Of a DNA stretch of 64,000 nt, positions 5,291-39,485 are shown piece after piece. The DNA comes from Bacillus sp. (in: firmicutes) (GTDB taxonomy: Bacteria > Bacillota > Bacilli > Bacillales > JACDOC01). Positions within the stretch are counted from its first letter, which is position 1. Each line of letters opens with the position of its first letter. The position numbers and the translations under genes were made by a program. The notes beneath the pieces were generated by a model. That model saw only the letters and a program-made list of their open reading frames with translations. It was not told where the DNA came from and searched no databases. Location of the stretch: positions 1-64,000 of the forward strand of contig JACDOC010000015.1 in the NCBI GenBank assembly GCA_017656295.1, in the 5' to 3' direction.

Positions 5291-5481
5291 TGTCACCAGA
5301 CAAATCAATGGAATTTATGCAAATTGCGATGAAATATTTACCAGAAGCGAAAGAGAAGTTGGATGAAACAGGGATTGAGTTAACAATGGAAATGCTTCAA
5401 CCGTTTATGGAGTTATTTATGAAAGTGATGAATGAAGCATATGAACTTGGTCGTAAAGATGCTTTACATGAAGAACAGTAA
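5290..5481 (+). CDS. comZ: ComZ, repressor of the comG operon
   Basis: This 63-residue acidic helical protein matches B. subtilis ComZ closely across MKYLPEAKEKLDETGIELT and NEAYELG. In B. subtilis ComZ lowers comG (competence pilus) expression, so med and comZ form a paired competence-tuning operon. Its ATG overlaps the med TAA (TAATG), which implies translational coupling. A terminator follows at once. Confidence 0.92.
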   Translation: MSPDKSMEFMQIAMKYLPEAKEKLDETGIELTMEMLQPFMELFMKVMNEAYELGRKDALHEEQ

Positions 5482-5508
5482 GCTTGTCGTATATCGGCAA
5501 GCTTTTTT
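5480..5508 (+). terminator. comZ terminator
   Basis: AGCTTG and CAAGCT form the stem with a CG-rich inner part, then TTTTTT. The repeat element copy 1 begins 20 bases downstream. Confidence 0.85.
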
Positions 5509-5527
5509 AGTGGATATTTAAAATAAA

Positions 5528-5779
5528 GGTTCTACCCTAAAATAACTGTTGATAACTTTTGCTGTTATTTTATTCATCGATGTGCCAATGGCAATTGGCA
5601 TGAATGTCAGTTAAACGATACTGTTGATATTCATACATTACGCTTGTGGCGGACGCTTTCCGCGGGCAAGCCGCTTCCCTCGCTACGCTCAAGTAAGGGT
5701 CTTGCGGCTTCTTGTTCCCGCTGGAGTCGCCGCCGTGTAAATAACTTGCTAAAAATCAACAATGACATATAACATAGCC
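5528..5779 (+). mobile_element. MITE-like inverted-repeat element, copy 1 (252 bp)
   Basis: The left end is GGTTCTACCC and the right end ATAACATAGCC. The flanks AAAATAAA (5520-5527) and TAAATAAA (5780-5787) match at 7 of 8 bases. The GC-rich core holds nested inverted repeats: GGCGGACG..GCGGG (5648-5667) with CCCGC..CGCCGCC (5717-5734), and AAGCCGC (5668-5674) with GCGGCTT (5704-5710). No coding capacity is seen. The same sequence recurs at 17692-17960 and 23225-23408. Confidence 0.8.
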
Positions 5780-5833
5780 TAAATAAAAAAATCCATTCTG
5801 TAAATAAGAATTGTTTAGACCGAGGCGATGATC

Positions 5834-16891: not shown

Positions 16892-17644
16892 ATGCTGTAT
16901 TTACATGACGTATGGGTCAATTGGTTTGAAGGTGAAGAAAACGGGTATAATGTTTGTCACTTTCATGAGTGGAGAAAAGATGACGTCATTGATTTATTGG
17001 ACCAAGTTCCCATCATCAAAGTTGAAAGTGTTTTATTTCACTACATAGAAAATGATTTGTCCGAACTTCCGAAGCAATTGTTAAATGATGTGTACCAAAA
17101 AGCCTATTTACGGAAAAATCATGAGCGCGTACAACTTGACTATTGCTTCATTGTATCTGATGGAAAAGGGATATTAGCTGTAGATACGATTGGCTATCAT
17201 ATTCCGATTCGAAAAAGCCGCTTAATTCCAAGACAAGAACAACTTGTTTATGAAATGATTGAACAGCTAGAACCGGTCGTTTATGAATTTGATTCGTACC
17301 AAACGAAGAAAGAGTATCATATGTTGTCACCACACCCACAATTAATGTACGGATTAACAAGGAAGGAACGCCAGTTAAAACAGTTATTATTTATGGCGTT
17401 AGATCAACTCTTTTCTTCCCAAAATACGGCCGAAATTCGCTACTGGTATACCGAGTGGGCACCGGAAAAGTATAGAGAAGTGCAGCAGCTCGATTTTTTT
17501 CAAGTGTGGAATCGTCTCTACGAAGAGACGAAAATCGGTTGGACAGATCAACATATAAACCTTTGTGAAAAACTAATAAAAGGGCAACCGTTTTTTGAAC
17601 GGTTATGGGAAGCTGAAAACGGATCGAAAGTAAATGAACCATAA
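16892..17644 (+). CDS. yjbA: UPF0736 family protein YjbA
   Basis: This 250-residue soluble protein starts [19 protein letters not shown], typical of the UPF0736/YjbA family of Bacillaceae. It has no recognisable catalytic motif, signal peptide or membrane helix. GAGGGG lies 8 bases before ATG 16892. In B. subtilis yjbA also lies between app and trpS. Its function is unknown. Confidence 0.85.
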
Positions 17645-17659
17645 GATGTTTAAAGAGTA

Positions 17660-17691
17660 GGAGGTGATTACATCACTCTCCTTTTTTATTT
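17660..17691 (+). terminator. yjbA terminator, disrupted by repeat element copy 2
   Basis: GGAGGTGAT..ATCACTCTCC hairpin with a one-base bulge, then TTTTTTATTT. The repeat element begins directly at the end of this T tract, and TTTTATTT is its target duplication. Confidence 0.75.
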
Positions 17692-17960
17692 GGTTCTACC
17701 CTGAAATAACTGTGGATAACTTTTGCTGTTATTTCATTTATCGATGTGCCAATTTTTATTGGCATGGTTGTCTGTTAAATGATACTGTTGAAATTTATAC
17801 ATTACGCTTGTGGCGGACGCTTTCCGCGGGCAAGGTGCAAGCTACTTCCCTCGCTACGCTCAAGTTTAGGTCTTGCGGCTTCTTGTTCCCGCTGAAGTCG
17901 CCGCCTTTCGCTTCATATGAATAACTTGTTAAAAAGTCAACAATGAAATATAACATAGCC
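17692..17960 (+). mobile_element. MITE-like inverted-repeat element, copy 2 (269 bp)
   Basis: The left end is GGTTCTACCC and the right end ATAACATAGCC. It is flanked by a perfect 8-base direct repeat TTTTATTT at 17684-17691 and 17961-17968. The core carries the GGCGGACGC..GCGGG and CCCGC..CGCCGCC arms seen in copies 1 and 3. It shares with copy 1 a left extension of about 90 bases (AACTGTGGATAACTTTTGC and onward) that copy 3 lacks. Confidence 0.85.
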
Positions 17961-17975
17961 TTTTATTTAGAATCA

Positions 17976-22198: not shown

Positions 22199-23408
<1,210 letters not shown>

Positions 23409-23410
23409 TA

Positions 23411-23695
23411 AATAAAAAAACCATTCATCCCCCAATTAGGGACGAATGGTATATCCGCGGTGCCACCCTAAGTGCCATAAAAGGCCACTCAACTCCCAGT
23501 AACATACAACTGGGTACCTTTTTAACGTCAGGTTCACGCTAAAGAATACTAAGAATCATCCGTTCTTCTTTAGGGCTCGAAAGTCCATTCCATTTGGACG
23601 GTAGTTTGTTTCCACCAACCACAAACTCTCTGAAGTACCGCTCCCAAATGTACTCTTCTTTCTCATCGCCTATCACGAAATATCGATTTGTGCAA
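23411..23695 (-). ncRNA. T-box riboswitch (tryptophan) controlling trpS
   Basis: On the - strand the T-box AGGGTGGCACCGCGG is at 23469-23455. It is followed by a terminator hairpin (CCATTCGTCCC with GGGGGATGAATGG) and T7 at 23450-23411. Upstream, stem I has AGAGAG and GGTTGGTGGAAAC distal-loop motifs near 23610-23635 and TGG codons at 23592-23590 and 23587-23585 in the specifier region. Uncharged tRNA-Trp should stabilise the antiterminator. Confidence 0.93.
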
Positions 23696-39368: not shown

Positions 39369-39485
39369 GTGAGGTTGATCACAAGCAAACATATACCCCT
39401 TTGTTTGACCGTGAAAAATTTCTCCCATCCCCTTTGTTCGTAGAAAGAAACACCCTAGCCTTAATGGCTAGGGTGTTTCTATTTA
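39369..39485 (+). ncRNA. roxS: RoxS (RsaE) small regulatory RNA
   Basis: The roughly 115-base transcript has two copies of CCCCTTTGTT (39396-39405 and 39429-39438), the C-rich seed regions of RoxS/RsaE that base-pair with mRNA ribosome-binding sites. It also has the conserved TTTCTCCCATCCCC, and ends in a 15-bp perfect hairpin (39446-39480). It lies between pepF-yizD and yjbH, the same place as in B. subtilis and Staphylococcus aureus. RoxS tunes NADH-producing metabolism in response to redox state and NO. Confidence 0.93.

Follow-up and report, generated by a model that had tools for sequence, protein, structure and literature searches.

The stretch of DNA analysed here (the window, 64,000 nucleotides of a Bacillus sp. 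contig) carries three copies of one short repeat, all placed next to rho-independent terminators when the sequence alone was read, and this raises the question of whether the element seeks out terminator T-tracts or reaches them for other reasons. Copy 2 (17692–17960, plus strand, long form, 269 bp) was found in the intrinsic terminator of yjbA (DUF3603; hairpin and T-tract, 17659–17691, plus strand): the gene ends at 17644, the hairpin AGGAGGTGATTACATCACTCTCCT occupies 17659–17682 (−10.8 kcal/mol), and the T-tract that follows contains the left target duplication (TSD; TSDs are given without strand) TTTTATTT at 17684–17691, which is matched perfectly by the right one (TTTTATTT, 17961–17968). 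In 25 of 30 relatives yjbA is likewise followed by a terminator, which makes it very probable that the terminator is older than the insertion. Copy 3 (23225–23408, plus strand, short form, 184 bp) is flanked by perfect duplications (TAAATAAA, 23217–23224 and 23409–23416), the right one overlapping the minus-strand T-tract GGTTTTTTTATTTA of the trpS T-box terminator; since the T-box leader itself lies at 23435–23675 (minus strand, Rfam RF00230, 125.3 bits), copy 3 sits inside the tract, within the part of the trpS leader that separates the T-box terminator from the start codon. The segment 23225–23416 is thereby part of the read-through mRNA. Copy 1 (5528–5779, plus strand, long form, 252 bp; left duplication AAAATAAA at 5520–5527, right duplication TAAATAAA at 5780–5787 with one mismatch to the left) is indeed close to the comZ terminator upstream of it (hairpin and T-tract, 5480–5509, plus strand; ComZ Pfam match), but it starts 17 nt past the first T, outside a tract that it did not hit. 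The window also contains an RsaE/RoxS small RNA (39369–39479, Rfam RF01820).

In the host genome (3.1 Mb, 60 contigs), the core GGCGGACGCTTTCCGCGGGC occurred 98 times at no more than three mismatches, compared with no occurrence of a reversed control pattern, and 100 copies were read from genome stretches, 91 of them with both ends. Eighty copies carried an 8-bp TSD with at most two mismatches and were taken as those with a usable TSD; these duplications were mostly perfect and A/T-rich (A/T only in 46 of 80, seven of eight positions A/T in 29 of 80). Two forms were distinguished, a short one of ~180 bp with terminal inverted repeats (TIRs) of ~25 bp (GGCTCTGTTAAA...TGTTGAT) and a long one of ~260 bp with ~80 bp inserted after GGCTCT. 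At 127–271 bp, the copies are too short for a transposase gene and have no coding capacity. In size, TIRs and lack of genes, as well as in its TSDs and high copy number (~100), the element is a MITE. Its copies have diverged (mean 93% identity to the consensus), and no match to it was obtained in an Rfam search at gathering score or in a plasmid collection. None of the ~100 copies was located on one contig of 239 kb (G000:C3), for which 7.7 were expected (P ~3e-4 for this contig alone, uncorrected for contig number); the stretches sampled from it (L165–L167) do contain suitable target sites.

An order-wide search revealed a modular element whose right end recurs across many genomes. The TIR GGCTNTGTTAAA...TGTTGAT bounds or borders IS1595-family transposase genes in two of them as well as many other small MITEs: in G137 (L135), an IS1595 transposase is accompanied by a MITE-type TIR, with ends that match those of the MITE at 19–22 of 25 positions, and in G113 (L136), where PF12762 was matched at 48.1 bits, one end is identical to the right TIR of the MITE at 23 of 25. 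The host genome itself has a single PF12762 match (66.1 bits), in an element with the same type of TIR and a perfect TSD TTATTATA (G000:C18, L155 969–2691). Besides these TIRs, which are common to elements bearing PF12762 transposases, the MITE shares with the IS1595 family (ISXO2-like) the 8-bp A/T-rich target duplication given for the family and its derivative ISApl4 in the excerpted account of the latter (PMC12561309). Unlike ISApl4, the MITE lacks a transposase gene, and its TIR begins with GGCTCTGTTAAA instead of GGGGCTGTACTAGA; the same excerpt reports neither a defined T-run/A-run target nor an association with terminators (PMC12561309). We infer that the MITE is mobilised in trans by an IS1595 transposase. 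A counterpoint to this assignment is that the genome's own IS1595 copy is single, has a split reading frame and has a right TIR that agrees with that of the MITE at only 18–20 of 25 positions, so that this copy is at most a candidate for the mobilising element. Its transposase, which is divided into two overlapping frames, would be either inactivated or expressed via frameshifting; the split lies near an A-run, the passenger gene of the element encodes a GNAT acetyltransferase, and an HU-like gene lies next to it.

The left end of the long form, GGCTCTACCCTAAAATAACTGTGG, differs from TIRs of the IS1595 type and is somewhat like an ISL3-type end, and ISL3 transposases are also encoded in the genome. 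ISL3 was nevertheless rejected as the partner family: the ends of the genome's own ISL3 elements (GGCTCTCTGTCAATTGTGG or GGTTCTCCGTCAAATG) differ from the MITE beyond GGCTCT, and the loose resemblance is limited to this one end. The extra left module of the long form (GGCTCTACCCTAAAATAACTGTGGATAAC..., e.g. 5528–5632 in the window) is also present in other genomes of the order (G173, G346 and G004). The G/C-rich core hairpin (GGCGGACGCTTTCCGCGGGC...GTCGCCGCC, e.g. 17812–17900) is also found, at ~70–80% identity, in numerous genomes of the order, where the ends of the MITE are often unmatched.

To define the target, the flanks of each copy were joined minus one duplication, and the resulting 80 empty sites gave the palindromic consensus TTTTT-[TTWWWWAA]-AAAA, with 8 bp between the T-run and the A-run (T at −1, 0.89; T at T1, 0.80; A at +1, +2 and +3, 0.92, 0.81 and 0.72). 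With ~460 kb of genome stretches as the background, insertions per 1000 background sites, to be read as relative rates, numbered 0.14 at target scores of −5 to 0, 55 at 6–9, 355 at 9–12 and 733 above 12. The real target is the palindrome TTTTT-(8 bp)-AAAA; a T-tract on its own provides half of this palindrome. A complement of the Shine-Dalgarno sequence (CTCCT beside the site), spotted by eye, was not above the score-matched background.

All copies were then mapped against predicted terminators, using gene and terminator calls from our own heuristics, which were checked by eye only, on known cases in the window. Under the strict caller, an insertion was counted as in-tract if its TSD lay between −3 and +12 relative to the first T of a terminator at a gene end. 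By this definition, 28 of the 69 clean insertions in intergenic DNA (41%; 48% when the calls were not gated on gene ends) fell in a predicted terminator T-tract, compared with 2.5% of all intergenic positions and 10.8% (ungated, 15.1%) of intergenic controls matched with a 12-bp PWM, and a value as high as that observed did not arise in any of 400 resamplings. The excess was confined to the tract, as 7.2% of insertions and 6.1% of controls lay 13–60 nt downstream of the tract start. Under a relaxed caller, 51 of 80 insertions had a hairpin of −10 kcal/mol or below, compared with 24.5% of background sites scoring at least 2. Related MITEs behaved similarly in a second genome, G370, where 13 of 27 were in tracts (3.8% of intergenic positions, 17–20% of score-selected ones); in a third, G347, the terminator excess was not repeated (1 of 12 MITEs in tracts).

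One explanation is direct recognition of the terminator by the transposase, which would sense a hairpin or cruciform, or else the bubble-bearing RNA polymerase as it pauses and terminates, and would then insert in the adjacent T-tract. In line with this, the insertion peak is sharp (0–7 nt after the first T), and T-rich sites with a hairpin of −8 kcal/mol or below upstream make up 44% of insertions versus 13% of the background (OR 5.0). Our first test, based on the 12-bp PWM, overstated the effect; later tests used a 20-bp leave-one-out PWM and also took gene-end distance into account. Adjusted for the 20-bp target score, the terminator effect had an OR of 3.4 (LRT 17.2), but once the distances to stop and start codons were included it fell to 1.39 (LRT 1.0, not significant). 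Matching for both score and distance (relaxed caller, E ≤ −10) yielded an MH-OR of 2.05 (p = 0.09) in the host genome and of 2.31 (p = 0.015) with G370 added. Stratified tests with the same caller gave ORs of 1.3–3.3 depending on genome and cut-off, and for both genomes together 1.5–2.3, with p-values that, depending on the energy cut-off, lay between 0.015 and 0.23 and that, where borderline, are uncorrected for the several terminator definitions and cut-offs tried. When only the best-scoring sites no further than 100 nt from a stop codon were compared, strict-call tracts accounted for 17 of 28 insertions and 21 of 34 unoccupied sites (OR 0.96). The result for G347, the many insertions without any terminator and the orientation of copies relative to transcription (20:12, p = 0.22, no significant bias) also argue against recognition. 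Because stop distance correlates with terminators, the stop-distance covariate may mask a real effect of modest size. We consider recognition of the terminator unlikely, and slightly less credible still is its extended version, in which an IS1595-type transposase senses intrinsic terminators (hairpin or terminating polymerase) as safe harbours and the 8-bp duplication rebuilds the U-tract at no cost to the host.

At the other extreme, insertion could be random across A/T-rich DNA, the terminator pattern reflecting only survivorship at harmless gene ends, an argument that has also been made for pneumococcal repeats (PMC3049150). Insertions were in fact enriched close to stop codons (within 100 nt) outside tracts as well (OR 4.3, p = 1.7e-5), and they were nearly absent within genes, with nine 'in-gene' calls, most of them at gene edges. 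Because sites scoring at least 6 are about as numerous in coding (586) as in intergenic (458) DNA, this scarcity looks like purging of insertions; the site preference avoiding genes that the sequence-only reading had proposed is thus borne out as a near-absence from coding sequence but not as targeting. Survivorship alone is improbable nonetheless, given the strong palindromic consensus and the lack of an excess 13–60 nt past the tract start, where insertions should be equally harmless. It is very improbable that copies were kept as useful terminators or 3'-end stabilisers. For the consensus, a single long hairpin is predicted on each strand (−68 and −72 kcal/mol), which could affect read-through, as the sequence-only reading had suggested, and in a tract-landed copy the element end is followed by the duplicated T-rich TSD; yet both orientations are used, the copies have drifted from the consensus as described above, and the original terminator was already present and keeps its U-tract. 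RNAalifold gave a poor fold for the consensus alignment, and covariation could be assessed at only a few pairs.

The score and distance controls, the near-stop enrichment outside tracts and the near-absence from genes therefore indicate that target sequence and gene-end tolerance account for most of the terminator pattern, with a small terminator effect left after matching; across the controlled tests its OR was 1.4–2.6, at borderline significance. Of the proposed preference for terminators, the position-specific T-tract excess over A/T-rich intergenic DNA holds, but the hairpin as a recognised target does not, the residual being small and caller-dependent. We regard as likely a model in which an IS1595-family (ISXO2-like, DDE) transposase would mobilise the non-autonomous MITE and insert it with an 8-bp stagger at the palindromic A/T target. 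Terminator T-tracts provide half of the consensus and lie just beyond stop codons, where insertions would be tolerated, which in this model is why ~40–65% of the surviving copies are found in them. The MITE represents a quantified case of a transposable element whose landing sites cluster at transcription terminators, and reveals to what extent such clustering stems from target sequence and tolerance.

The recombinase of Tn916 belongs to the tyrosine family and is unrelated to the IS1595-type transposase proposed for the MITE. Tn916 has nearly the same target, TTTTTA[AT]4AAAAA, and likewise an intergenic bias, but it is an integrative conjugative element, and the excerpted account does not report terminators as targets (PMC12084037); two different enzymes appear to have converged on the same, mostly harmless kind of site. 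The pneumococcal BOX, RUP and SPRITE elements resemble the MITE in being small interspersed repeats that are over-represented downstream of coding sequences, which has been explained by tolerance, but they belong to other repeat families, and SPRITE is itself terminator-like, whereas the MITE lands in an existing terminator (PMC3049150). TnGBS, ISLre2 and ISKra4 are DDE transposons that also spare genes and whose insertion preference is linked to a transcription signal; unlike the MITE, they insert upstream of promoters rather than at terminators, 15–17 bp upstream of sigma-A −35 boxes in a fixed geometry (PMC3942029).

Insertion into a tract leaves the terminator U-tract intact because the duplication copies the T-tract, which would offer a simple way to multiply to many copies without harming the host. 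Where the element had landed in a tract, the initial 12 bases of the tail were nearly unchanged (median 11 of 12) and the mean tail score was 4.40 before and 4.41 after insertion; the 8-bp duplication keeps the U-tract beside the old hairpin, and, judged from these tail bases and scores, the old terminator should therefore still work.
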